This document shows positions 1 to 63,897 of a stretch of 64,000 nucleotides of DNA, one piece after another. The notes beneath the pieces were generated by a model. It was given only the letters and a program-made list of their open reading frames with translations, did not search any database and was not told the origin of the DNA. This DNA comes from Serratia nevei (lineage in GTDB: Bacteria; Pseudomonadota; Gammaproteobacteria; Enterobacterales; Enterobacteriaceae): NCBI RefSeq assembly GCF_037948395.1, contig NZ_CP149941.1, positions 55,378 to 119,377 of the forward strand. The letters are read 5' to 3'. Both the position numbers and the translations under genes were made by a program. The stretch's first letter is position 1. Each line of letters starts with the position of its first letter.

Positions 1-321
1 TACCGGGATTAAAACGAGGTCGCTAACCATCACTGCAGCAGATGAGATTGCCGAAATTGCTGCAGCGCCATCAATGATGATGAAGTCATAACCTGTGAGC
101 TGTTTCCGAACTGTGTAAACTTCCTTCTCGGAAGACGCTTCCGCCAGGTCGAACTTGCATTTATCTTCCTCATACCAGTTGGCAATACTTGCCTGTGGGT
201 CAGTATCGACTACAACTACGCGGAATCCTTGTCTCGCCAGGCAGGTTGCAACGTTGATAGACGTCGTTGTCTTCCCGACCCCCCCTTTACCATTCAAAAA
301 TGAAATAACGTTAGTTTTCAT
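1..321 (-). CDS. parA: ParA/MinD-type partition ATPase, N-terminal part (runs off left edge)
   Basis: An open frame on the - strand begins with ATG at 319-321 and has no stop before base 1, so only the first 107 residues are present. It starts [19 protein letters not shown]: a deviant Walker A motif (KGGVGKTT, about residues 12-19) typical of the ParA/Soj family. [10 protein letters not shown] (about 38-47) is the switch/A' region and FIIIDGAAA (about 80-88) is Walker B. Family members are DNA-bound ATPases that position plasmids together with a partner (ParB or a small DNA-binding protein). A partner would lie to the left, outside the window. Tandem 8-bp repeats lie directly upstream and are candidate partner or operator sites. 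The plasmid also has a separate ParM-type system at 3216. Confidence 0.92.
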
Positions 322-340
322 ACATAACCTCACTGTAGAG

Positions 341-500
341 TAATCCTGTAATCCTGTAATCCTGTAATCCTGTAATCCTGTAATCCTGTAATCCTATAGT
401 CCTCGGCGGATCTCCGATTAGAATCACATAGTTATTTGATTATGTAAATATGTAATCACATGATTTTGTAATCCTGTAATCCTGTAATCCTGTAATTCTA
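341..500. repeat. Tandem 8-bp repeats upstream of parA (possible centromere/operator)
   Basis: Six perfect head-to-tail copies of TAATCCTG plus one variant fill 341-396. A second array of three perfect copies plus a variant fills 469-500, and degenerate copies (GTAATCTTG, GATTCTG) continue to about 575. The arrays start 20 bp upstream of the parA start codon. Iterated sites beside a parA gene are usually centromere sequences and/or operators; the partner protein is not in the window, so the role is inferred from position. Confidence 0.75.
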
Positions 501-599
501 CCCTCCGCCTCTCCGTCATCTTGTAATCTTGTGATTCTGTAATCCTATGATTTTATGATTCTGTAATCTTTTAAGGCTATGGCCAAGAAACTCTGTGTT

Positions 600-837
600 G
601 CCGTTGTTTCCATTGCTGCGTCACCCATTAACTCGCCGCGCCTAACATAGCCTCGCCTTAGTCTGCGGCAAGTATTCGCTACCGCCGGCTGCTTTACCCG
701 TTCGCACTCCCTCCGCGTTGTTCCAGTCGCTTGCGCATGCGGCTTCAGCAGCCGTACCTGCCTCATCCCTTGCCGGCGTGGCTAGTTCTTGCGCTATGGC
801 GAGAAATGGGTTCTCGCCTCCATAGGGAGACAACACC
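600..837 (+). repeat. CUP-like upstream repeat, copy 1
   Basis: A diverged copy of the repeat seen best at 1640-2048. It keeps the two most conserved boxes, ACCCGTTCGCACTC at 696-709 and GTCGCTTGCGCATGCGGC at 726-743. It ends directly in front of the methylase-like gene at 838, with AGGGAG as ribosome-binding site. The arrangement resembles the conserved upstream (CUP) repeats of IncN plasmids, which carry promoters for leading-region genes. Confidence 0.7.
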
Positions 838-1608
838 GTGAACAACCAACTTTCCTTCGATGCTTTTCTGACTACTGAAGCGCCAGTGAAAAATGAATCA
901 AGAACCACGCCCAGTGAAGCCAGGAAACTATTTATCAAAACGTTCTCGTGCGTTGCTACTTACCATCGGCGCCTCGATGTTTTCCGCGACTTTATTCGGC
1001 TGGCTGCTAATGAACTTGACCTGGCACGCGTGCGATCGGAGGAGGGGAGGGAAGAGGCAATGCAGATTTGTAAACGGTATGAGGCTGCCGATTTAGAAAA
1101 GATGCAGCATTTGTTCTGTTTCCTGGTCGATGCGTTGGAAGCCGGAATGCATGACCTGTTGGGTGGAGTATTCATGGAACTGGAATTCGGCGCCGCATCA
1201 ATGGGGCAGTTTTTCACGCCGCTTGAACTTTCGCGCTTGATGGCAAGGCTGACAATCGGAGAACACGTTAACGAGCTGAAGCAGCGACCGTTTATTACGT
1301 TGGATGAGCCGGCCAGCGGATCGGGAGGGATGGTGATCGCTGTGGCCGAGCACTTGTTAACGCAGGGCTATAACCCGCAGCAGCAGTTGTATATTCGTTG
1401 TACTGATATCGATCCGATGGCCGCCGATATGTGTTTTGTACAGCTCGCATTATTGGGGTTGCCTGCAACAGTTTATACCGGCAATACCTTATCCATGAGT
1501 ATGTCGAAGGTTCGCCATACGCCGATTTATTACATTAATGGATGGGGTGAGAAACTTCGCTTGCTTGATATCGCAACTCGATTCCGAAAAGTGCTGCAAG
1601 CGGTTTAG
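838..1608 (+). CDS. N-6 adenine DNA-methylase-like protein lacking the NPPY motif
   Basis: 256 residues from a GTG start preceded by AGGGAG. The middle resembles type I HsdM/N-6 methylases: GQFFTP at residues 123-128 (HsdM usually GQFYTP), a SAM-binding motif I DEPASGSGG at 156-164 (usually DPACGSGG), and DIDP at 190-193. The protein ends soon afterwards and shows no NPPY/NPPF catalytic motif IV and no target-recognition domain. It is therefore unlikely to be a complete modification enzyme. Its place in the leading region, behind a CUP-like repeat, would suit an early anti-restriction or SAM-binding role, but that is inference. Such short methylase-like proteins are common on enterobacterial plasmids. 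Confidence 0.75.
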   Translation: MNNQLSFDAFLTTEAPVKNESRTTPSEARKLFIKTFSCVATYHRRLDVFRDFIRLAANELDLARVRSEEGREEAMQICKRYEAADLEKMQHLFCFLVDALEAGMHDLLGGVFMELEFGAASMGQFFTPLELSRLMARLTIGEHVNELKQRPFITLDEPASGSGGMVIAVAEHLLTQGYNPQQQLYIRCTDIDPMAADMCFVQLALLGLPATVYTGNTLSMSMSKVRHTPIYYINGWGEKLRLLDIATRFRKVLQAV

Positions 1609-1639
1609 TTTTAGGGAAGGGGAGACAGTTCTCCCCTTT

Positions 1640-2048
1640 TTGCTATTGGTTTCCGGCGACGTTGAGTCGCCAAAAACCAACGATCGGTCGCTTGCAGCCG
1701 GCTTCGCCGGCGCCGCTCTCACTGCCCGGCCGCTAAGGCGGCCGTTCGCTAAGGCAGCCAGGCTAAAGGCCTGGCACTTTCTGGTGTATCCCCTCAGGCC
1801 CGGCATCCGCGCAGAGAGACTGTCCCCGTGACAGACGCTGAGCCGGGGCGCCGCCGGCACAAGGGTACGCGTTGCCGGCGTCCTCACCCGTTCGCACTCC
1901 CTTCCTCCCTGCGGTCGTCAGGTCGCTTGCGCTGCGGCCTGCGGCGCCGCCCTTGTACCGTCAGCTGATACCCCGTCTCGGTCTTGTTGTCACGGCGCCA
2001 GGCTCCCCGCGCCGGCGAAAGCCAAAAGGGGAATACACCAGAAAGAAG
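1640..2048 (+). repeat. CUP-like upstream repeat, copy 2
   Basis: Bases 1691-2048 are almost identical to 6721-7078 (differences seen only in one hairpin loop near the start). Internal hairpins in order: 15-bp arms at 1646-1660/1666-1680 with loop GTTGA; GCCGGC-TTC-GCCGGC at 1697-1711; CGGCCGC/GCGGCCG near 1728-1746; GCCAGGC/GCCTGGC near 1757-1775. Then come the boxes TTCTGGTGT, GTGACAGAC, ACCCGTTCGCACTC and GGTCGCTTGCGC. It ends about 18 bp before the gene at 2066. It is likely a structured promoter/leader shared by leading-region genes. Confidence 0.85.
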
Positions 2049-2065
2049 TCGAAACGGGAAGGTTT

Positions 2066-2569
2066 ATGACGAAGTTACTGAAAGAGTTTTTGGCCGAGCT
2101 GGCCATCAGCCAGAAGGCTAACACGCTGCAGGACGAGCGTGCCGAGGACAATTTGGCCCGCATTTCATTGGCTGCAGAGGTTGTTTTGGCTTTCTTAGAG
2201 AGAGGTCCGGGTGACGAACGCGACGTAGCGACGATTTTTGTAGATTTAATGGCCGATTTATTCCACTTGGGACACCGCCTGCACATGGCTGGCTTTTATG
2301 CCGATTTTCCATTATGGCGGCAGTCTGTATTACTCACCGCCATGGGCCATTTTGACGCTGAAATTACCGAGTGTTCAGAGGTTGAGGCAAATCATCCTCA
2401 TGCGGCTTTCGCATTGCTGTCGTTCCTAAACAGTCGTAAGCAACCTGAGCAACACACCAGCGTATCGGCACGCCTACTTGCGACCGAACTGGTCATGATG
2501 AATACCCGCCTTGAATCGTTACCGAAAGCTAATGCACTGGCCGCAGTCATCGCCGAAATCTACAAGTAA
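2066..2569 (+). CDS. Leading-region protein of unknown function (167 aa)
   Basis: The ATG is preceded by GGGAAGG. The product is mainly helical by composition and acidic, without signal peptide, membrane segment or recognisable catalytic motif. It is the first gene behind CUP-like repeat copy 2 and is followed, after a short hairpin, by the gene at 2616, so the two probably form one transcription unit. The leading-region location suggests early expression in the recipient. I do not recognise the family. Confidence 0.7.
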   Translation: MTKLLKEFLAELAISQKANTLQDERAEDNLARISLAAEVVLAFLERGPGDERDVATIFVDLMADLFHLGHRLHMAGFYADFPLWRQSVLLTAMGHFDAEITECSEVEANHPHAAFALLSFLNSRKQPEQHTSVSARLLATELVMMNTRLESLPKANALAAVIAEIYK

Positions 2570-2575
2570 TCATTC

Positions 2576-2595
2576 GGGCGGTGAGCATGCCGCCC
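2576..2595 (+). other. Intergenic hairpin between paired leading-region genes
   Basis: GGGCGG (2576-2581) pairs with CCGCCC (2590-2595) around TGAGCATG. No T-tract follows. The same GGCGGTGA...GCCGCC design recurs at 9079-9096, and a related hairpin lies before 7634. It may be a processing, attenuation or translation-coupling element. Confidence 0.55.
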
Positions 2596-2615
2596 TGTTT
2601 AATTAGGGTATCAAT

Positions 2616-2957
2616 ATGAATAATAAGATTTATTTTAAGGGTAAAAAGACAATTGAGGTGATCACTCATGCGCGTCAACGCGGGTGTGATGTGCTGTTGA
2701 TCAAGGATGAGGGGGTGTATTTGATGGCGGCATCGCATGCCAAAGGAAAGCGATTACTGGCCTATGCGGAAGGGTTGGATCCGACGACCCGTGACAGTAG
2801 CGATGTGTTTGATGACGCCTGCCGATTATGTGGCGGCGACGACTTTATGGAGCGGATCCCGTCGGACGACCCGACCTTTGACCATATGCTGGAGAAACAA
2901 GGTCATCTTGAGTTTCTCATTACACAAACCGAGTTCTGTATGACGTCTGTGGGTTAA
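2616..2957 (+). CDS. Small conserved plasmid protein (113 aa), possibly DUF3085-like
   Basis: ATG at 2616, 20 bases after the hairpin at 2576-2595. The product carries a VLLIKDEGVYLM segment (about residues 25-36) and an acidic C-terminal half containing a CRLCGG motif. This reminds me of the small DUF3085 plasmid family, but the match is from memory and weak. It has no membrane segment or signal peptide. It is probably co-transcribed with the gene at 2066 and lies just upstream of the parM centromere. Confidence 0.6.
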   Translation: MNNKIYFKGKKTIEVITHARQRGCDVLLIKDEGVYLMAASHAKGKRLLAYAEGLDPTTRDSSDVFDDACRLCGGDDFMERIPSDDPTFDHMLEKQGHLEFLITQTEFCMTSVG

Positions 2958-3006
2958 AAGCAATGCCCGACTCGCATTCATGATTGTGACGCGGTGAGGA
3001 AAAACC

Positions 3007-3199
3007 CCTCTTGATACTCAATATGGGTATCAAGAGGGCCAGCTGGAGCATTCTTCAAAAATAAAGCTACTCAGTTTGATGCGTAACATAATGAACTGAT
3101 GTGATAAAAACTCGTATTGAGTATATTAATTTACTCGGAATGAGTAATTATTGCTTGATGCGATCTCTGGTTTACTTATAATGATACTCAAATTGAGTA
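3007..3199. promoter_or_regulatory. parC: parC-like centromere/operator of the ParM system
   Basis: Repeated dyads of the form TACTC-N5-GAGTA precede the actin-like gene: TACTCGGAATGAGTA (3132-3146), TACTCAAATTGAGTA (3185-3199), ACTCGTATTGAGTA (about 3110-3123), and half-matched copies at 3068 and inside an 11-bp-arm inverted repeat CCTCTTGATAC/GTATCAAGAGG (3007-3017/3027-3037). In ParMRC systems such iterons lie upstream of parM, bind the adaptor protein and double as the operon's operator. The 3007-3037 hairpin may also end transcription reading leftwards, because it is preceded by an A-run on the + strand. Confidence 0.8.
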
Positions 3200-3215
3200 A
3201 CTAAAGGGTTGTGAA

Positions 3216-4190
3216 ATGCATATTTGCTGTGATGATGGTTCTACCAATGTGAAGCTGGCCTGGTATGTGGCGGGGGATTTGCATACGACCCTATCGCCTA
3301 ATTCTTTCCGTCCAGGATGGAAAGTCGACGGCATCGGCAGCCGTCGCACGTACAACTATTCCGTTGAGGGTCTGAAGTACACCTTTGACGATGTTAGCCA
3401 GCAGGCGATCAGCACGACCAATATTGAGTATCAGTACGGTGATACCAATCTGCTCGCGGTTCACCATGCCTTGCTAAACAGTGGCATTGAGCCACAATCG
3501 GTTAAGCTGACCGTCACATTGCCAATCAGCGAGTTCTATACCGATGACTGTCAGAAAAACACAGTCAATATTCAGCGAAAAATCGACAACCTGCTTCGAC
3601 CTGTGACGTTGAATAAGGGAGAAGCTTTTACGGTGACAGCAGTTGAAGTGATGCCTGAATCCCTACCCGCGGTGTTTTCTCTCTTGGTCCAGGAGAATGT
3701 TGGGGCGCTGGAAACGTCGCTGGTTATCGATTTGGGTGGAACAACGCTTGATGCTGGGGTGATCGTCGGCCAATTCGACGATGTGACGGCGATCCACGGT
3801 AATCCTACCCTGGGTGTTTCTATAGTGACGCAGGCAGCTCTAACTGCGCTGCGTATGGCGGACAGCGATACGAGCGCCTATGTGGCGGATACGGTGATCC
3901 AACGTCGTCACGATCGGGCCTTTTTGTCACAGCTGATTAATGATGCTTCCCGGGTTGATGACGTAATCGCCGCGATAGAGCACGGCATCACTCGGCTTGG
4001 CGATCGCGTGGTGAACGAACTGGCGCGATTCCGCCACGTTAACCGGGTTTGGCTGGTAGGTGGGGGCGCTCCGCTGATAGAATCCGCAGTCAGAAAAGCC
4101 TGGAAACTGCCGGCGGAACGTATAACGTTGGTCGAAAACCCGCAAATGGCGCTGGCGAGCGAAATGGCATTGTATAAACAAGAGGGATAA
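3216..4190 (+). CDS. stbA: ParM/StbA actin-like plasmid segregation ATPase
   Basis: 324 residues, the usual ParM size. Actin-fold nucleotide motifs are visible: DDGSTNVKLAW at residues 6-16 (phosphate 1), VIDLGGTTLDAG at 170-181 (phosphate 2), and VGGGAPLI in the last sixth (adenosine motif). ParM polymerises with ATP and pushes sister plasmids apart when capped by the adaptor bound to the centromere. The centromere repeats are immediately upstream and the adaptor gene follows 2 bp downstream, so this is a complete stability cassette within the leading region. Confidence 0.93.
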   Translation: MHICCDDGSTNVKLAWYVAGDLHTTLSPNSFRPGWKVDGIGSRRTYNYSVEGLKYTFDDVSQQAISTTNIEYQYGDTNLLAVHHALLNSGIEPQSVKLTVTLPISEFYTDDCQKNTVNIQRKIDNLLRPVTLNKGEAFTVTAVEVMPESLPAVFSLLVQENVGALETSLVIDLGGTTLDAGVIVGQFDDVTAIHGNPTLGVSIVTQAALTALRMADSDTSAYVADTVIQRRHDRAFLSQLINDASRVDDVIAAIEHGITRLGDRVVNELARFRHVNRVWLVGGGAPLIESAVRKAWKLPAERITLVENPQMALASEMALYKQEG

Positions 4191-4192
4191 CC

Positions 4193-4597
4193 GTGAGCGA
4201 AAACAGCAGTGATACCCGCCGAAAATTTACCAGCTATTTGCAGCTGGACTGCGAAGCAGATCGCCAGGCTCTGAATGTGGTTGAATCCATTTCGCAGCGA
4301 GTACGCGGGGATTTTCTGCGTAATGCCATCATCACAACGGCGGCATTACATCAGCTCGATTCACGATTACCTGTTTTGTTGGCCACGATGTACAACGGCC
4401 AGTTGACCAGTGAGCAACTGGTCAACCTGGTCAGTCAAACAACCGGCTGGAAACCCGAAATGGCCGCGATCCGCGACGTGGTTATGGCGTTGTCGGGTGA
4501 TAATTGTCGATTGGTGGATCCGGTTGAACCTGTACAACAGCGTAACGAATCGGGGCCCCTGGATGAGGTTCGCAAGAAATTGGATAAATTGCTCTAA
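4193..4597 (+). CDS. stbB: StbB/ParR-like centromere-binding adaptor
   Basis: 134 residues from GTG, 2 bp after the parM-like gene. It is small, has a basic N-terminal part (DTRRKFTSYLQLD) that could be a ribbon-helix-helix, and a helical C-terminal part, as in adaptors that couple parC to ParM filaments. The assignment rests mainly on size and on the conserved parM-adaptor order. It probably also represses the operon through the dyads at 3007-3199. Confidence 0.8.
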   Translation: MSENSSDTRRKFTSYLQLDCEADRQALNVVESISQRVRGDFLRNAIITTAALHQLDSRLPVLLATMYNGQLTSEQLVNLVSQTTGWKPEMAAIRDVVMALSGDNCRLVDPVEPVQQRNESGPLDEVRKKLDKLL

Positions 4598-4599
4598 GG

Positions 4600-4677
4600 G
4601 GCAATTATTGCCGGTTTATCTGCTTTTTTATCTCATTTAGGGGGCAAAAATTGCCTGTTTTTTAAGGGGGGCAATTC
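4600..4677 (+). promoter_or_regulatory. Repeated operator GGGGCAA-N-TTGCC before the double-HTH regulator
   Basis: Three related sites lie between stbB and the next gene: GGGGCAATTATTGCC, GGGGCAAAAATTGCC and GGGGGGCAATT just before the start codon. Each is a dyad with GGCAA/TTGCC arms. They are likely operators for the downstream helix-turn-helix protein (autoregulation). A related half-matched site, GGCCAATTCTGGCC, follows that gene at about 5248. Confidence 0.6.
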
Positions 4678-5235
4678 ATGGATGTTTTTGAGTTGAGATT
4701 ATGGCGCGCCGGCCAATACTTTTCGCTGTCTGAGGTGCGTTCGCTACGCCTTGGAAGCCATTGGCGGCAAGAGGATGCCGCCAATGCTCTGGGGGTGTCA
4801 GAACGGACTTATCGGACCTATGAAAATAGTGGCGTGTCCCGAACAGCTCGCCTGGGGATCCAGACACTGATGCTGGTCCGCTTGTTTCCCGATTTGCGTC
4901 GAATGGAGCAACCGCAAATCGTTTTGCAACTGCAGGCGCTAACGCGCCATGATCAGACAACACCCCAGTCCAGGGGCGCGGTATCGCATATTATGCCTTC
5001 TGCAGGTATGAAGGCATGGCGAGGGGCGCTGGGTTGGACGCAAAAGCAGACCGCGGATTACCTTGGGGTTTCGCTTCGGACCGTCAAGAACTATGAGCAA
5101 GGGGTTTTGCCGCGTCGACTGATGTTGGCCGCACAGGCTGTTACGCTGGTAACGTTATTGCCGGTCTGGGCAACCTATCCGTCAGCCAGGTTACTGCAGG
5201 TTCTGGAGCAACTGGTTAATATTGAAGTGAAATAA
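4678..5235 (+). CDS. Tandem helix-turn-helix transcriptional regulator (StbC position)
   Basis: 185 residues; AAGGGGGG precedes the ATG. Two separate HTH units are visible, around residues 24-50 (QEDAANALGVSERTYRTYE) and around 111-138 (QKQTADYLGVSLRTVKNYE), so the protein looks like an internal duplication of a Cro/XRE-like domain. It follows stbA-stbB, the position of a third stb gene in other plasmids. The GGCAA/TTGCC dyads in its own promoter suggest autorepression; it may also control other leading-region genes. Confidence 0.75.
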   Translation: MDVFELRLWRAGQYFSLSEVRSLRLGSHWRQEDAANALGVSERTYRTYENSGVSRTARLGIQTLMLVRLFPDLRRMEQPQIVLQLQALTRHDQTTPQSRGAVSHIMPSAGMKAWRGALGWTQKQTADYLGVSLRTVKNYEQGVLPRRLMLAAQAVTLVTLLPVWATYPSARLLQVLEQLVNIEVK

Positions 5236-5339
5236 CACCCTGTTTATGGTGGCCAATTCTGGCCACTCAAAGGATCCCCGGCCTTGCCGGGGCCCCATCT
5301 TTGACTTCAACTTCTGCTGTTTGTATTTTTCCGCCCTAC

Positions 5340-5600
5340 GGGCGGGGATCTAAATGGTATGTCGTCGCCTGGGCTTACGCCGTAGCCCGAACGTAGCCGT
5401 GCCGCTGCGCATGCAAGGGTACGCGTTGCCCATATCCTCACCCGTTCGCACTCACTCTCTCCCTGCTGTCGCTCGTTCGCTTGCGCATGCGGCTTGCGGT
5501 AGCGCAGCAATGTTTCGGGGAAATCGGTCAGCGCGCCTGGGAGCATGCACGTTACAGACTGGCGTTCGAGTTGGCGGTGGAGTATTCGTACAACTGACCT
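5340..5600 (+). repeat. CUP-like upstream repeat, copy 3
   Basis: This diverged copy keeps AAGGGTACGCGTTGCC, ACCCGTTCGCACTC (5440-5453) and TTCGCTTGCGCATGCGGC (near 5475-5492). It lacks the long 5' hairpin part of copies 2 and 5. It fills most of the gap between the double-HTH gene and the toxin-antitoxin operon. Confidence 0.65.
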
Positions 5601-5615
5601 GCTGGACGATATTTT

Positions 5616-5680
5616 ATCAAAAAGACCTGTTAACAGGTCTTTTTGGTGGTATAATAAGACCTGTTAAGCGGTCTTATTAA
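5616..5680 (+). promoter_or_regulatory. Toxin-antitoxin promoter with two palindromic operators
   Basis: AGACCTGTTAACAGGTCT (about 5624-5641) is a perfect palindrome and AAGACCTGTTAAGCGGTCTT (about 5658-5677) an imperfect second copy. A TATAAT -10 box lies between them at about 5650. Paired operators around the -10 box are typical of antitoxin/toxin-complex autorepression. Confidence 0.75.
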
Positions 5681-5692
5681 GTCGAGGATACC

Positions 5693-5944
5693 ATGCCAAA
5701 TATCATTCTGAGTGACACAAGCGCGAGCATCAGCGAGCTGAAGAAAAACCCTATGGAAACCGTTGGCGCCGGCGCCGGTTTTCCGGTGGCCATACTGAAC
5801 CGCAATAAGCCAGAATTTTATTGCGTGCCGGCGGCGCTCTACGAGCAAATGCTCGATGCCCTCGATGATCAGGAGCTGGTCAAATTAGTTAATGAGCGCC
5901 GCAGCGAGGTACTGGTTGACTTCGATCTGGATCAGTTCGCATGA
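5693..5944 (+). CDS. RelB/StbD-type antitoxin
   Basis: 83 residues. The N-terminal part (ILSDTSASISELKKNPMETV) matches the YefM/Phd/StbD prevent-host-death type of DNA-binding domain, and the acidic C-terminal tail would wrap the toxin. It overlaps the toxin gene by 4 bp (ATGA), as in most type II pairs. It should bind the two palindromes upstream and repress the operon together with the toxin. The role is plasmid maintenance through post-segregational killing. Confidence 0.85.
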   Translation: MPNIILSDTSASISELKKNPMETVGAGAGFPVAILNRNKPEFYCVPAALYEQMLDALDDQELVKLVNERRSEVLVDFDLDQFA

Positions 5945-6228
5945 CGTATACGGTCAAATTTCGTGAGTCGGCTCTGAAAGAGTGGGGCAAGCTCGACAAG
6001 GCGCTGCAGCAGCAGTTCGCCAAAAAGCTGAAAAAATGCTGCGAGAACCCGCATATACCTTCGGCAAAACTACGGGGGATGCCGGGGTGTTACAAAATCA
6101 AGCTGCGCGCATCGGGTTTTCGTCTGGTTTATGAAGTGATCGACGATTGCCTGATTATCGCGGTGGTTGCCGTCGGCAAACGTGAGCGCGGCGATGTGTA
6201 CCAGTTGGCCAGCGAACGTCTGAAATGA
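5941..6228 (+). CDS. RelE/StbE-type mRNA interferase toxin
   Basis: 95 residues with the RelE layout: TVKFRESALKEWGKLDK at the N terminus, a basic middle (KKLKKCCENP), the PGCYKIKLRASGFRLVYEV strand-rich core with arginine residues used in RNA cleavage, and a C-terminal VGKRERGDVYQLASERL. RelE toxins cut mRNA in the ribosomal A site. The 4-bp overlap with the antitoxin ensures coupled translation. Confidence 0.88.
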   Translation: MTYTVKFRESALKEWGKLDKALQQQFAKKLKKCCENPHIPSAKLRGMPGCYKIKLRASGFRLVYEVIDDCLIIAVVAVGKRERGDVYQLASERLK

Positions 6229-6294
6229 AACAGGGCGCAGGCCGTAGGCTTGCGATAAATATAAAAGTCATTGGAATATAAAGGATTTATTTGA

Positions 6295-6522
6295 ATGATA
6301 GTCGCAAAACCGATCTCGAGCAAAGAACCAGACCTGTTGGTAGGAAATGAACACAAAACACTCATAATCAAGGATTTATCCGGCGTTGTACTGGCAAGCT
6401 TCAAGCCTGATGGCGCTGGCTGGACGCATGACCAATTGCTGGCCATTGATATCCACAGCATGGCGCCAGAGGGATGGGATGCCTACCTGGCTGATGATTG
6501 GATAGGCAGTTCAGAAATATAA
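6295..6522 (+). CDS. Small protein of unknown function (75 aa)
   Basis: AAAGGA lies 7-8 bp before the ATG, supporting translation. The product is soluble and acidic with no known motif. It lies 66 bp behind the RelE gene and in front of CUP-like copy 4, and may be transcribed with the toxin-antitoxin operon. I do not recognise the family. Confidence 0.55.
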   Translation: MIVAKPISSKEPDLLVGNEHKTLIIKDLSGVVLASFKPDGAGWTHDQLLAIDIHSMAPEGWDAYLADDWIGSSEI

Positions 6523-6589
6523 ACTTGCAACAAGTCGCTCTCGGAACACCTTTCTTGTAACTCTTGTGAGCTTCCTCCGGTGGCTGGCC

Positions 6590-7078
6590 GCACACGTCCA
6601 GCCATCAGCCCAACTCAACTAGCCGCCCGCCTGCGGTCGCCAAGTCTCGCCGAACCCGCGTTGCGGTTTCGGGCCAGTCGGCTATGGTCTGAAAGCCAAC
6701 TGCAAGATCAAAGACTAGCGCTTGCAGCCGGCGATGCCGGCGCCGCTCTCACTGCCCGGCCGCTAAGGCGGCCGTTCGCTAAGGCAGCCAGGCTAAAGGC
6801 CTGGCACTTTCTGGTGTATCCCCTCAGGCCCGGCATCCGCGCAGAGAGACTGTCCCCGTGACAGACGCTGAGCCGGGGCGCCGCCGGCACAAGGGTACGC
6901 GTTGCCGGCGTCCTCACCCGTTCGCACTCCCTTCCTCCCTGCGGTCGTCAGGTCGCTTGCGCTGCGGCCTGCGGCGCCGCCCTTGTACCGTCAGCTGATA
7001 CCCCGTCTCGGTCTTGTTGTCACGGCGCCAGGCTCCCCGCGCCGGCGAAAGCCAAAAGGGGAATACACCAGAAAGAAG
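6590..7078 (+). repeat. CUP-like upstream repeat, copy 4
   Basis: Bases 6721-7078 repeat 1691-2048 almost exactly. The GCCGGC/GCCGGC hairpin is kept at 6727-6732/6736-6741 although its loop changes from TTC to GAT. Upstream (6590-6720) the sequence differs from copy 2 but again contains dyads (TGGCTGG/CCAGCCA, TAGCCG/CGGCTA). The near identity over about 358 bp implies recent duplication or gene conversion and makes it a possible site of homologous deletion of 2.0-7.0 kb. Confidence 0.85.
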
Positions 7079-7117
7079 CCGTTGCGGCTTCTGAGTTACT
7101 GACTAACGGGAGTGGTT

Positions 7118-7576
7118 ATGTCAACGATCGAGCAACAGCAGCAACAACAAATGGTTTTTTATATTCCGGGAACAACGTGGCCACTGGATGTCGCAATCTG
7201 GCTGGAAGATCGCTTTGTCACGTCGTCAGGCAAAACGCTTGAACAGCTACAGCAGCGTAATCCTGCATGTATTCTGGTGTCGTATGAAGAAGCGAAGCGC
7301 GGTATGTATGAGGCCGCAAGTCTGCCTGTCCGTCGTATCAGCAAAGATGAGTACATGGACAAGTTGGAGATGTTGCCGCCGCTCGATTGGAAGTATTTTG
7401 ATGGCCACGAATCTTTCAAGATGATGGAAATGTATTGCGGGAATATTACCGATATTTTCGCCCAACTTGGCAATAGTTATTTTGCGATGCGCGATCATGT
7501 TTCGTTACCACATGCTGAGATCATGCAGCGTGTGCGTACATTTATCGATGCCGAGTCAGCGGCCGTAGCATCCTGA
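7118..7576 (+). CDS. DUF1419-like leading-region protein
   Basis: 152 residues from ATG at 7118, with CGGGAG 5 bp upstream; an in-frame GTG at 7112 is a less likely start. The N terminus has a poly-glutamine run of six. The central part (SKDEYMDKLEMLPPLDWKYF, then SFKMMEMYCGNITDIFA) resembles the DUF1419 proteins of conjugative plasmids, as I recall them. Function unknown. It lies directly behind CUP-like copy 4, so early expression in the recipient is likely. Confidence 0.7.
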   Translation: MSTIEQQQQQQMVFYIPGTTWPLDVAIWLEDRFVTSSGKTLEQLQQRNPACILVSYEEAKRGMYEAASLPVRRISKDEYMDKLEMLPPLDWKYFDGHESFKMMEMYCGNITDIFAQLGNSYFAMRDHVSLPHAEIMQRVRTFIDAESAAVAS

Positions 7577-7633
7577 ATAGTTTCCCTCGGTGTTGGCAAC
7601 GCCGGGGGATCCTCGATAAGAAGGAAATCGACA

Positions 7634-7783
7634 ATGATTATTGATGACTATATCGCGGCGATCGGTCGTAAAATTTTAGAGCAATGGCAAGAAAATAAAC
7701 CGGTAATTATTCCAGCTCTTAAAGGTTTTGAGTGGGCACAGCTGCTCCGCTACTTAGAACTAAAACGGGGCTATGCGTGTTGA
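7634..7783 (+). CDS. Small protein (49 aa) paired with the DUF1419-like gene
   Basis: A short frame starts MIIDDYIAAIGRKILEQW and ends at TGA 7781-7783, with AAGGAA 7 bp upstream. A CCTCGGTG...CGCCGGGG hairpin separates it from the preceding gene, as in the other gene pairs of the leading region, and a terminator follows at 7798. Its helical, charged composition is consistent with a real small protein. Function unknown. Confidence 0.6.
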   Translation: MIIDDYIAAIGRKILEQWQENKPVIIPALKGFEWAQLLRYLELKRGYAC

Positions 7784-7797
7784 TTCATGATATGAAC

Positions 7798-7825
7798 TGA
7801 GCCACCCAATTGGGTGGCTTTTTAT
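7798..7825 (+). terminator. Intrinsic terminator
   Basis: GAGCCACCCAATTGGGTGGCTTTTTA: a GCCACCC/GGGTGGC stem with a short AATT loop followed by a T-run. It ends the 7118-7783 unit and insulates CUP-like copy 5. Confidence 0.85.
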
Positions 7826-7829
7826 TCCG

Positions 7830-8230
7830 GCTGTCGCCTTTCAGCGGCGTCGAGCCGCTGAAAGGCGAACAAAACGCTTGCAGCGGGCTAAGCCCGCGCC
7901 GCTTTTGCAGTTTCCATCAAGATGAAAACTGTAAGGCTATCAGGCTCCGCCTGATGTTACGTTTTGGTGTTTCCATTTCCTCTTCGGTGCTTAGCGGCAT
8001 GTCTTTTGCTGTGACAGACCTTGTGCCGGGGCACCTACATCGAAAGGGTTCGCTATCGCCGGCCATCCTTGCCCGTTCGCACTCACTCAACGCAGTTTCG
8101 TTCGCTTGCGCATGCGGCCTGCGGTGTCGCCCCTGCGTTGCAGGTTTATACCCCGTCACGGTCATTGCGTCACAGCACAAGACGCGCCACTCCGGCAAAA
8201 CCGGAATAAATGGCAACACCGAAAACAGAC
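7830..8230 (+). repeat. CUP-like upstream repeat, copy 5 (structure kept, sequence changed)
   Basis: Hairpins occur in the same order as in copy 2 but with different bases: a perfect 15-bp stem 7834-7848/7854-7868 with loop GTCGA (copy 2 loop GTTGA); GCGGGC-TAA-GCCCGC at 7883-7897; CAGTTTCCATC/GATGAAAACTG at 7908-7931; ATCAGGC-TCC-GCCTGAT at 7939-7955. Then TTTTGGTGT, GTGACAGAC, GCCCGTTCGCACTC (8071-8084) and TTCGCTTGCGCATGCGGC follow. It ends before the gene at 8245. Confidence 0.85.
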
Positions 8231-8244
8231 TGAAGGGGATGAAT

Positions 8245-9066
8245 ATGAAACGACTGTATAGTGGATTTCGCCAGGCAAATGTGATCCGTAAAACTCGACC
8301 ATTAACAAATGATGAGTTATTCCGTCACGTACCAAGTGTCTTCTCTGAAGAAAAACATGCATCACGTAGCGAGCGTTATACCTACATACCAACGATTAAT
8401 TTGTTGGATAGACTCCGCGGAGAAGGTTTCCATCCATTTTCTGCTTGCCAAACAAAAGTTCGCGATGATGATAAACGTGGTCACACGCGACACATGCTAA
8501 GGCTTCGTAGAGATGGTTTCGGTCAAAATGATGAAGTTCCTGAGATTATTTTACTCAATAGTCATGATGGGAGTAGCAGCTATCAAATGATTCCGGGCAT
8601 ATTTAGATTTGTTTGTAACAACGGTTTAGTGTGCGGCGACACGTTCGGGGAAGTCCGTGTTCCTCACAAAGGAGATGTTGTTGGACGAGTGATAGATGGT
8701 GCTTATGAAGTGCTAAGTTTATTTGAAAAAGTAACGGGTTCTCGTGATGAAATGAAGGGGGTCTTTCTTGATAAAGATGAACAACATGTTTTTGCTGAAG
8801 CTGCATTAGGTTACAAATATTTTGGAGAACATCAACCAATTACCGCAGAACAGGTTCTGAGTCCGCGACGTTGGCAAGATAAGAAAGATGATTTGTGGAC
8901 GACGTTTCAACGGGTTCAAGAAAACATTATAAAAGGCGAAATACCTGGAATCAGTGCCAACGGAAAACGAAACAGAACTAGGGCAGTAAATAGCATAACT
9001 GGTGATGTAAAGCTCAATAATGCCTTGTGGAAAATGGCTGAAACAATGAAAAATTTGAAATCTTAA
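8245..9066 (+). CDS. DUF932 (YafZ/YfjQ-like) plasmid protein
   Basis: 273 residues from ATG 8245, chosen because AAGGGG (8233-8238) lies 6 bp upstream; the ATG at 8239 is too close, and the frame further upstream is the CUP-like repeat. Motifs of the DUF932/DUF945 plasmid-phage family are present: ERYTYIPTINLLDRLRGEGF, the HMLRLRR block, and the IFRFVCNNGLVCGDTFGEVRVPH block. Function unknown; family members cluster with anti-restriction and leading-region genes. Base composition is AT-richer than the preceding repeat. A DUF5983-like gene follows, a frequent pairing. Confidence 0.82.
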   Translation: MKRLYSGFRQANVIRKTRPLTNDELFRHVPSVFSEEKHASRSERYTYIPTINLLDRLRGEGFHPFSACQTKVRDDDKRGHTRHMLRLRRDGFGQNDEVPEIILLNSHDGSSSYQMIPGIFRFVCNNGLVCGDTFGEVRVPHKGDVVGRVIDGAYEVLSLFEKVTGSRDEMKGVFLDKDEQHVFAEAALGYKYFGEHQPITAEQVLSPRRWQDKKDDLWTTFQRVQENIIKGEIPGISANGKRNRTRAVNSITGDVKLNNALWKMAETMKNLKS

Positions 9067-9078
9067 GGGTAGGATTAT

Positions 9079-9096
9079 GGCGGTGATAGTGCCGCC
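9079..9096 (+). other. Intergenic hairpin before the 9111 gene
   Basis: GGCGG (9079-9083) pairs with CCGCC (9092-9096), loop TGATAGTG. It matches the hairpin at 2576-2595 in design and position between two paired genes. A 16-codon frame (ATG 9077 to TGA) runs through it and could be a leader peptide. Confidence 0.5.
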
Positions 9097-9110
9097 TGAT
9101 ATTAATAAAT

Positions 9111-9416
9111 ATGAAGCGACAAATTGAATTTAAACGATGCCTTGTTTGCAGTACAGATCACTTGACGTATGAAGATAATTTGATTTTAAGTAAAGCGAAA
9201 AGTGAGAACTGGGTTCTTGGTTATGACTACGGATTTGTTATTGATTTATGGAAAAGGCATTATTTTATTTTGCATGCAAAACGATTCGGATTATCTAAAG
9301 ATTTCAGAAAGCTTATTCTTAATCTTATAAAAAAACATGATATAGAAATGATAAAATTCGATTGCGACGCTGATGTATTAGAGGGTGTTAAACTGCATAA
9401 ATCTGATTACTGGTGA
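9111..9416 (+). CDS. DUF5983-like small plasmid protein
   Basis: 101 residues. The N terminus has the CSTDHLTYEDNLIL pattern (family: STxHLTxED), then an aromatic GYDYGFVIDLW strand, and a C-terminal MIKFDCDADVLEGVKLH block matching the family's FDxDAxxxxGLPxxxW end. Function unknown; it often accompanies DUF932 and anti-restriction genes. The Shine-Dalgarno is weak, so translation may be coupled to the upstream gene or leader frame. A strong hairpin follows. Confidence 0.65.
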   Translation: MKRQIEFKRCLVCSTDHLTYEDNLILSKAKSENWVLGYDYGFVIDLWKRHYFILHAKRFGLSKDFRKLILNLIKKHDIEMIKFDCDADVLEGVKLHKSDYW

Positions 9417-9424
9417 CCCGGTTT

Positions 9425-9457
9425 TAGCCGGTATCGGTATCGAACCGATACCGGCTA
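9425..9457. terminator. Perfect 14-bp hairpin between convergent genes
   Basis: TAGCCGGTATCGGT pairs with ACCGATACCGGCTA around ATCGA. It sits between the ends of the + strand leading region and the - strand MobC-like gene. No long T-run follows on either strand, so it may act as a weak bidirectional terminator or a transcript-stabilising stem. Confidence 0.6.
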
Positions 9458-9488
9458 ATCTAACGACATTGTGCTAAATAAAATCAAA

Positions 9489-9803
9489 TCACATTTTTTG
9501 TTGTTCTGTCGTGTTTTTGTCTTTCAACTGACCCTTTTTTTTTCTTCCTGATTTGATGGGAGTTGTGCTTTTTATAATTTCATTTATTGCTCTTTCACTA
9601 ACTACGATTTCACAGCTTTCAAGTGCTGACTTGATATCCTTTGCTGTGTACCCTTTTTGAGTAGCTAGCAATATGATCTGTTCCTTGAGTTCATCCAAAA
9701 CTTCCTTTCCGCTTAACCTCTCTTTGCTCAAGTCTGGCAAGTCTGCCAGTGATACTTTTGCCAACTCAACTTGTTCTTGACTGTATTGGTTCTTCGTAGC
9801 CAT
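9489..9803 (-). CDS. mobC: MobC-like small accessory protein next to oriT
   Basis: 104 residues, basic C terminus (SGRKKKGQLKDK). The segment SGKEVLDELKEQIILLATQKGYTAKDIKSALE (written here in part only as LKEQIILLATQKGYT) resembles the MobC-type proteins encoded divergently from the relaxase genes beside oriT in IncL/M plasmids. It probably binds DNA near oriT and aids relaxosome formation. A 15-bp palindrome GTGTCATCATGACAC (9857-9871) lies upstream and may be its operator. The family call is from memory and position. Confidence 0.55.
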   Translation of the reverse strand: MATKNQYSQEQVELAKVSLADLPDLSKERLSGKEVLDELKEQIILLATQKGYTAKDIKSALESCEIVVSERAINEIIKSTTPIKSGRKKKGQLKDKNTTEQQKM

Positions 9804-9939: not shown

Positions 9940-10075
9940 GGTTTAAAACACGGGACAGGATATGTTTTGTAGCACCGCCTGCACGCAGTCGGCTCTACAA
10001 AACGTCCTGGTCAGGGCAGAGCCCCGACACCCCACGAGACTGTAAACTGACGAGACTGATAGGGATAACATCACC
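9940..10075. other. oriT: oriT with predicted nic site (- strand, between 9956 and 9955)
   Basis: On the - strand the sequence CATATCCTG^TCCCG (9964 to about 9951) fits the IncP/IncI-type nic consensus (ATCCTG^Y). Next to it is a 9-bp inverted repeat GTTTTGTAG (9964-9972)/CTACAAAAC (9995-10003). Then comes an imperfect dyad TCAGGGC-AGA-GCCCCGA (about 10011-10026), like the NikA-binding repeat of R64. It lies directly in front of nikA-nikB. With the nick on the - strand, DNA from 9955 towards 1 enters first and nikAB enters last. Confidence 0.82.
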
Positions 10076-63754: not shown

Positions 63755-63810
63755 AAACCCCCCGAAATCTGTCATCAACTTGGCGGAAGAGTCAGATATC
63801 AGGGGGTCAA
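63755..63810 (-). ncRNA. inc: Inc antisense RNA locus / rep mRNA stem-loop I
   Basis: CCCCC..A.ATCTG (from 63758) pairs with CAGAT...GGGGG (to 63806) around the loop TTGGCGGA (63780-63787). This is the stem-loop of IncFII/IncI/IncL-M replicons whose UUGGCG loop binds the antisense RNA. The antisense RNA is read from the - strand; the rep mRNA reads +. It controls copy number and incompatibility by blocking the pseudoknot with stem-loop III. Exact RNA ends cannot be seen. Confidence 0.85.
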
Positions 63811-63843
63811 AAGCAGGCGCTGGCCTGTGAGAGATTATAACTC

Positions 63844-63897
63844 ATGCAATTTAGAAAACAACACCTGTCCGCCATAAGTTCGGGACAGGGTGGCTGA
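63844..63897 (+). CDS. Rep leader peptide (RepY/RepB-like, 17 aa)
   Basis: ATG 63844 to TGA 63895-63897, [17 protein letters not shown]. The frame runs through stem-loop III (CCTGTCC 63864-63870/GGACAGG 63883-63889) and its stop overlaps the GTG start of repA. In I-complex replicons, translation of such a leader opens this stem and lets TCCGCCA (63868-63874) pair with TGGCGGA (63781-63787) to form the activating pseudoknot. Confidence 0.8.

Follow-up and report, generated by a model that had tools for sequence, protein, structure and literature searches.

Genes of plasmid leading regions, among them those for anti-restriction, SOS inhibition and DNA methylation, help to decide whether an incoming plasmid survives. 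On plasmid F, Frpo1 and Frpo2 are both needed for early expression of the downstream genes on entry, as judged from deletions (PMC9849209), and reviews attribute transcription of ColIb-P9 ardA to a promoter that is Frpo-like or single-stranded (PMC8744291, PMC3874165). Here we describe five repeated elements near the start of a 64,000-nucleotide stretch of Serratia nevei DNA (contig NZ_CP149941.1, positions 55,378 to 119,377), referred to as the window. The elements probably represent a divergent class of Frpo/ssi-like single-stranded DNA (ssDNA) promoter or primer sites that drive leading-region genes. The minus strand of the window, which we take to be the transferred one, is called the T-strand throughout. 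An earlier survey of leading regions, which used five Frpo/ssi sequences as BLAST queries together with criteria of hexamers and fold (PMC11541004), found thousands of Frpo-like candidates, and these may include some members of the present family. A literature search that took in few subscription papers, and some sources only in part, found no description of the covarying family or of its strand polarity.

The five copies and their fold

An original prediction, made from the nucleotide sequence, held that two boxes recur in five copies on the + strand. Both are exact at all five places: CCCGTTCGCACTC at 697, 1887, 5441, 6917 and 8072, and TCGCTTGCGC at 727, 1923, 5477, 6953 and 8102. The pair occurs at these five places only in the whole 5.46-Mb genome, with no occurrence in a reversed control, and a covariance model of the element core (R1, described below) finds exactly the same five copies there at E values up to 0.001. 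The copies are as follows.

638-794, minus strand: copy 1, core element with boxes at 697-709 and 727-736; R1 score 67.4 bits
1646-2045, minus strand: copy 2, with stem 1 at 1646-1680, stem 2 at 1697-1711, stems 3 and 4 at 1728-1775 and the core at 1828-1993; R1 score 133.3 bits (copy 2 is among the 16 sequences that built R1)
5419-5505, minus strand: copy 3, a remnant; R1 score 47.1 bits, covering model positions 43-121 only
6638-7075, minus strand: copy 4, with a 5' module at 6638-6692, stem 2 at 6727-6741 and the core at 6858-7023; R1 score 133.3 bits
7834-8226, minus strand: copy 5, with stem 1 at 7834-7868, stem 2 at 7883-7897, stems 3 and 4 at 7908-7955 and the core at 8011-8173; R1 score 132.9 bits (copy 5 is also among the 16)

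T-strand DNA folds of stretches of about 485 nucleotides (nt), each compared with 30 dinucleotide shuffles, give z values of -7.5, -6.6, -8.9 and -8.7 for copies 1, 2, 4 and 5, respectively. In copy 3, with a z value of -1.6, no structure of this kind is seen, and its right arm is lost at a deletion junction around 5498-5501. Relative to S. nevei plasmid pCUVET18-1371.2 (L015), the deletion removes 6.1 kb, with window positions 4601-5501 corresponding to L015 357-1258 and positions 5498-9500 to L015 7360-11361 (99%). In L015 the absent 6.1 kb hold antirestriction, ParB-family, PsiB-family and PsiA genes.

The hairpins of the prediction are largely present. Stem 2, with its compensatory exchange of G-C for C-G, is seen as claimed at about 1697-1711, 6727-6741 and 7883-7897, and stems 3 and 4 exist in copies 2 and 5. 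The 15-bp stem 1 of copy 2 is there too, although only 13 of its 15 pairs are Watson-Crick on the + strand, where two C·A mismatches correspond to G·T pairs on the minus strand. The claim that the hairpins are kept across all five copies holds for copies 2, 4 and 5 but not for the remnant, nor for copy 1, which folds without stems 1-4 and yet is fitted by the whole core model (638-794). The hairpins also recur in the proposed three-way comparison of copies 2, 4 and 5; however, copies 2 and 4 are identical at 357 of 360 positions (1689-2048), differing only in three loop bases of stem 2, and so the comparison comprised two independent copies rather than three.

The folds contain a further structure that had not been predicted, a larger outer arch that closes copies 2, 4 and 5 (1777-1794 with 2027-2045 in copy 2; 7961-7980 with about 8205-8226 in copy 5). 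Inside this arch lies a long stem-loop capped by both boxes, in which CGCA of the first box is paired to TGCG of the second.

Relatives, covariation and the selected strand

An iterated hidden Markov model (HMM) of the core finds 99 members at an E value of 1e-5 or better. They are found in the leading regions of annotated plasmids from Serratia, Yersinia, Enterobacter, Citrobacter and Erwinia, and on contigs from Cedecea and Buttiauxella, the leading-region position having been checked on the annotated plasmids and not on genome contigs (L006-L014, L057-L063). F and ColIb-P9 have one member each, plus weak partial matches at E 0.007-0.011, and the IncN plasmid R46 (50 kb) has none, with E values up to 10 or up to 1. 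An 85% identity cut reduces 98 extracted records to the 57 elements used below. Of the 107 HMM members, 45 carry the stem-2 motif, and 16 of these make up alignment A1, the dropped ones being at least 92% identical to a kept one; its T-strand sequences are copies 2 and 5 and 14 relatives, with one row (L007 4234-4580) whose range was corrected by hand.

The core covariance model gives 124 matches at E values up to 1, of which 123 lie below 2e-5 and 16 are the training sequences. They fall in 34 of 38 sources and, within each source, on one strand only. The 38 sources are the window and 37 of 63 loci, mostly fetched because they match the element family, and exclude own-genome or overlapping loci (L001-L005, L039-L057) as well as L009 and L012. 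F has two matches, with a member at L023 8492-8708, and ColIb-P9 three; R46, L033, L034 and L035 have none at E values up to 1. Across 295 genomes of the order, scanned with stricter filters and counting genomes without plasmids too, there are 31 matches in 10, nine of them in the window's own family as grouped by the tool. Loci L009 and L012 are metagenome-assembled contigs from other phyla, to which the box pattern fits and the HMM fits weakly (E 0.011 and 0.33).

To obtain the consensus shape, the 16 aligned T-strand elements were folded singly and their pair probabilities averaged. Pairing holds in 84.3% of 1686 cells, against 73.4% in shuffled and 33.9-40.4% in slid controls, a percentage that leans towards the consensus shape because the shape comes from the same 16 sequences. 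Counts of both-sided change, like the pairs common to both strands discussed below, lean less in this way, and here 59 of the 107 pairs change on both sides (41.6 shuffled, 25-33 slid). The covariation score is 0.330, compared with 0.153 for shuffled and 0.073-0.101 for slid alignments. Within the core, both-sided change is seen at 25 of 50 pairs, and 89.0% are paired. A larger alignment, A3, which is fitted to the covariance model, holds 93 distinct of 100 aligned elements, and 47 of its 50 pairs covary (score 0.413 versus 0.131 shuffled). It draws on 29 of the 38 sources, omitting L024, L033, L034 and L035, which have no match, and L010, L011, L026, L027 and L031, judged by eye to be near-copies. 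Selection on a folded nucleic acid, as the prediction had proposed, is thus strongly supported by covariation in the 16-element, core and model-aligned sets, and building a covariance model with relatives, the check that the prediction had suggested, upholds the covariation.

Which strand is selected can be read from the mismatches, since every A·C mismatch becomes G·T when read on the complementary strand. Of the 107 T-strand consensus pairs, 87 are shared with the + strand consensus. In the T-strand cells of these, G·T occurs 82 times and A·C 35 times, next to 1108 Watson-Crick pairs, 148 other combinations and 19 gaps. The bias is alike in A:T-derived (26:9) and G:C-derived cells (47:16), so that deamination alone is insufficient; C-to-T deamination of the T-strand was rejected as the sole cause. 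In 39 diverged elements that were not used for training, G·T outnumbers A·C by 89 to 26, and all six controls in which the pairs were slid by 1-3 columns are reversed, with A·C exceeding G·T. Under strand-symmetric folding, the + strand ratio of A·C to G·T is 38:17 in all 57 elements (p 0.006, binomial p values being indicative only because cells of related sequences are not independent) and 32:7 in the strongly folded half, an excess that is favoured by the choice of this group by T-strand z. The T-strand z is below that of the + strand in 44 of the 57. As controls, the five Frpo/ssi sequences of F and ColIb-P9 are more stable on the T-strand than on the + strand by 11-29 kcal/mol, whereas the strands of three R46 CUP repeats differ by at most 1.8 kcal/mol. 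The mismatches of the T-strand, being G·T rather than A·C, therefore point to the transferred ssDNA as the target of selection more than to a leader RNA, which would show the reverse. The T-strand is the selected strand, at least in strongly folded members; the remnant copy 3 does not show this.

The assignment of the minus strand as the transferred one comes from an oriT-like site, that is, a candidate origin of transfer (oriT).

9950-10003, no strand assigned: oriT-like site, ACGGGACAGGATATG plus the inverted repeat TTTTGTAG...CTACAAAAC

The site sits between mobC (minus) and mobA (plus), and matches the corresponding place in Yersinia ruckeri pYR6 (L017) at 85% identity across 196 nt. ColIb-P9 shares the GGGACAGGAT core, a 27-nt match adjoins that core, and the order and direction of genes in the window are those of ColIb-P9. 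We assume that nicking occurs on the minus strand, as at an R64/RP4-type nic site. With this polarity the minus strand would be transferred, the region from 9.9 kb down to position 1 would enter first, and the leading genes would lie on the plus strand.

Proposed function and rival explanations

Frpo1 and Frpo2 were located on F as 90% repeats (L023 15470-16012 and 10082-10622), Frpo1 also through PMC9849209. Both of them, together with two of the three ssi repeats of ColIb-P9, have the same 5' stem-2 module as the present family (GCTTGCAGC-hairpin-GCGCCGC). An HMM of the module gives 91 matches, of which 50 are followed by a core and 41 are not; reversed decoys give none. Similarity by BLASTN is more restricted: a ColIb-P9 ssi sequence matches copy 4 in the 5' module only (82% over 57 nt, E 1.6e-5), and its best match is the Citrobacter element L020_20001 (79%, 166 nt). 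With the five F and ColIb-P9 Frpo/ssi sequences as queries, BLAST finds 6 of 107 family members at E <1e-6 and, in the window, a short 5' match in copy 4 only. The upstream parts of copies 2, 4 and 5 give nothing relevant against F, ColIb-P9 and R46, apart from one 14-nt match (E 0.057) elsewhere in F. Since the 5' module is shared and the core is absent from Frpo/ssi, the elements look modular, as if a Frpo/ssi-type 5' part were joined to a different apical domain. The module matches without a core (for example L015 6725-6763, L034 15002, L022 11820 and L060 3742) may mark other Frpo/ssi-type elements; five such sites were folded, and the apical hairpin of one, L035 22360-22770, is AT-rich as in Frpo.

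On ColIb-P9, a member of the family (L025 13843-14059) lies directly upstream of ardA (14106), a gene long reported as switched on in the recipient, and this appears to be the best functional link, of an indirect kind. In the window, copy 1 is upstream of an N-6 DNA methylase gene (838-1608, +; Pfam N6_Mtase, E 9.1e-10), and copy 2 of a gene without a Pfam match (2066-2569, +), which is followed by a DUF3085 gene (2616-2957, +). Copy 4 precedes another gene without a Pfam match (7118-7576, +) and copy 5 a DUF932 gene (8245-9066, +; Pfam DUF932, E 2.5e-48).

From the computed structure, covariation, polarity, position and orientation, and from the shared 5' module, we infer that copies 1, 2, 4 and 5 probably act as promoters. 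When the plasmid enters the recipient single-stranded, each element would fold on the T-strand into a long closed arch, accompanied in copies 2, 4 and 5 by side hairpins, and at the conserved apex of the arch the boxes would be paired together. The folded element would most likely recruit the host RNA polymerase, and perhaps the priming machinery too. RNA would then start on the T-strand at a putative start site, while the double-stranded form would presumably be silent, and the leading genes would be expressed before second-strand synthesis, as at Frpo/ssi. Genes driven in this way would be those for the DNA methylase, the DUF932 protein and proteins without a Pfam match in the window, and for ArdA and a ParB-PsiB-PsiA operon in relatives.

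Several observations weigh against the elements being ssDNA promoters. The main weakness is that a consensus sigma-70 promoter is not evident in them: TTGACA occurs in 2 and TATAAT in 5 of the 57 T-strand elements, against expectations of 6.3 and 2.5, respectively. A GTGACA-17-TATCAG/TATAAG/TACAAG arrangement is present in Serratia/Yersinia-type copies, and as GTGACG-17-TATAAA in copy 5, but was rejected as a general promoter because it is not kept outside these types. Frpo1, Frpo2 and the ColIb-P9 ssi sequences have no match to the covariance model at E values up to 1, which implies that the apical part is unlike that of the tested promoters, and the HMM by itself matches the module on F and ColIb-P9 weakly (E 0.05-0.16). 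The T-strand z is -4 or higher in 29 of 57 members, and these weakly folded ones lack the mismatch bias (6 A·C and 10 G·T on the + strand). Several consensus pairs are poorly kept, such as those of core helix 4 (68.8% paired). The polarity of the oriT-like site is an assumed one, and ColIb-P9 ardA could be read from a distant ssi or another start.

The elements might instead be priming sites only, at which the folded T-strand loads a primosome, primase or RNA polymerase for synthesis of the complementary strand without driving any gene. AAGCGG, which we take to be the hexamer of primosome sites, occurs on the T-strand in 29 of 57 elements where 15.4 would be expected, and its complement in 6 where 7.7 would be, and Masai and Arai are said to have reported in 1997 that Frpo primes. 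Yet the excess is modest and the position of the hexamer varies between subtypes, and five elements in 10 kb (four of them intact), upstream of genes and co-oriented with them, exceed what priming needs; we consider this explanation unlikely. In ten weakly folded members (from L019, L017, L030 and L036 among others), several of them upstream of antirestriction genes, AAGCGG lies at one offset (103), and in the Serratia type it lies at another position. A second possibility is that the repeats are cassette boundaries, either recombination repeats that shuffle leading-region genes or structures for T-strand transfer or protection. The near-identity of copies 2 and 4, the sequence that the 5' part of copy 4 has in common with another element elsewhere in L015 (82.6%, 218 nt) and the deletion that ends in copy 3 would all fit. 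Homologous recombination, though, would preserve sequence and not pairing with changed sequence, which leaves this reading improbable.

The prediction had left the choice between an ssDNA promoter and a leader RNA. A leader RNA, acting in the 5' untranslated region of the downstream gene's mRNA, would agree with the + strand too folding better than its shuffles (mean z -3.1, 57 elements) and with the pairs common to both consensus structures. It would not agree with wobbles on the wrong strand, the RNA-like strand having the excess of A·C, with the T-strand z being the lower one in most elements, or with a promoter scan of positions 1-9600, which gives no + strand site in copies 1, 2, 4 and 5 or up to 1 kb upstream of them. 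That scan yields 7 sites against 9.5 in shuffles, one of them (5301-5329) just upstream of copy 3. Strand polarity led us to reject the leader RNA, which we regard as highly improbable, whereas the ssDNA side is favoured by that polarity, by the position of the oriT-like site and by the Frpo/ssi 5' module. There is similarly very little likelihood that these are ordinary double-stranded operator or promoter repeats like the ArdK-controlled CUPs of IncN plasmids. Such repeats also stand upstream of leading-region genes on R46/pKM101, but R46 has no HMM or model match, copies 1, 2, 4 and 5 have no strong + strand sigma-70 site (best 7-8/12), and covariation and strand polarity would be left unexplained. 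The CUP-like label of the prediction is therefore dropped; homology with IncN CUPs was rejected on the results of the HMM, the covariance model, the comparison of strand folds and the promoter scan.

Surrounding features and comparison with known systems

The best plasmid matches of the window are Serratia plasmids, three of the nearest being typed MPF_I, and no plasmid match to its first 12.5 kb reaches 80% coverage. A PK-repBA pseudoknot (Rfam RF01089, 88.8 bits) near the end of the window, at 63756-63879, suggests a repBA-type replicon; in the first 9.6 kb Rfam has no match at the gathering score. The gap ahead of copy 1 holds arrays of an 8-bp unit (GTAATCCT), partly degenerate, at 340-571, and these may be a partition site because the relative L016 has a Soj/ParA gene across the same gap. 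Two AAGACCTGTTAA-type palindromes with a TATAAT hexamer lie at 5619-5678, upstream of a Phd/YefM-like and RelE/ParE-like gene pair, and are a possible autoregulatory operator.

Among described systems, the EGeRS1 repeats of pLS20-type plasmids are also repeated structured sequences upstream of establishment genes. They are, however, from Gram-positive bacteria, and PMC8708921 describes the transferred strand as the non-template, so that they are not ssDNA promoters. The CUPs of R46/pKM101 resemble the window copies in being several near-identical repeats upstream of leading-region genes, but differ in that they match neither by sequence nor by the model, the three examined show no strand bias and the one that was scanned has an ordinary sigma-70 promoter (10/12). 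The 355-bp repeats of ColIb-P9, found upstream of ardA and of an antirestriction gene and with a 95% relative on F, are members by the covariance model, with a T-strand bias in the ColIb-P9 copies and the arch plus CAAGGGTACGC core. They differ in having no adjoining match to the stem-2 module and a longer apical loop, and a description of them under this structure was not found in the accessible literature.

The closest likeness is to Frpo/ssi, which are also in the leading region, in the same orientation to oriT, upstream of leading genes and with the T-strand as template, and in which the T-strand is likewise more stable than the + strand. Copy 5 and Frpo1 are each upstream of a DUF932 gene, with a small gene in between in the case of Frpo1. 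The difference is in the apex, which in Frpo/ssi is an AT-rich hairpin and in the present family a GC-rich arch with conserved CAAGGG, GCGCAAGCG and TGCGAACGGG. The family adds evidence, from covariation and strand polarity, that selection acts on the transferred DNA strand as the molecule, and its covariance model finds such elements where BLAST with Frpo/ssi finds little. It is conceivable, though we would put it somewhat short of an even chance, that these elements form a second widespread class of ssDNA gene switch on conjugative plasmids, unnoticed on F and ColIb-P9. Such a class would have its own covarying fold and an apical recognition motif unlike that of Frpo, would depend on its shape and apex, not on consensus -35 and -10 hexamers, for recognition by RNA polymerase or some other factor, and would swap 5' modules with Frpo/ssi.

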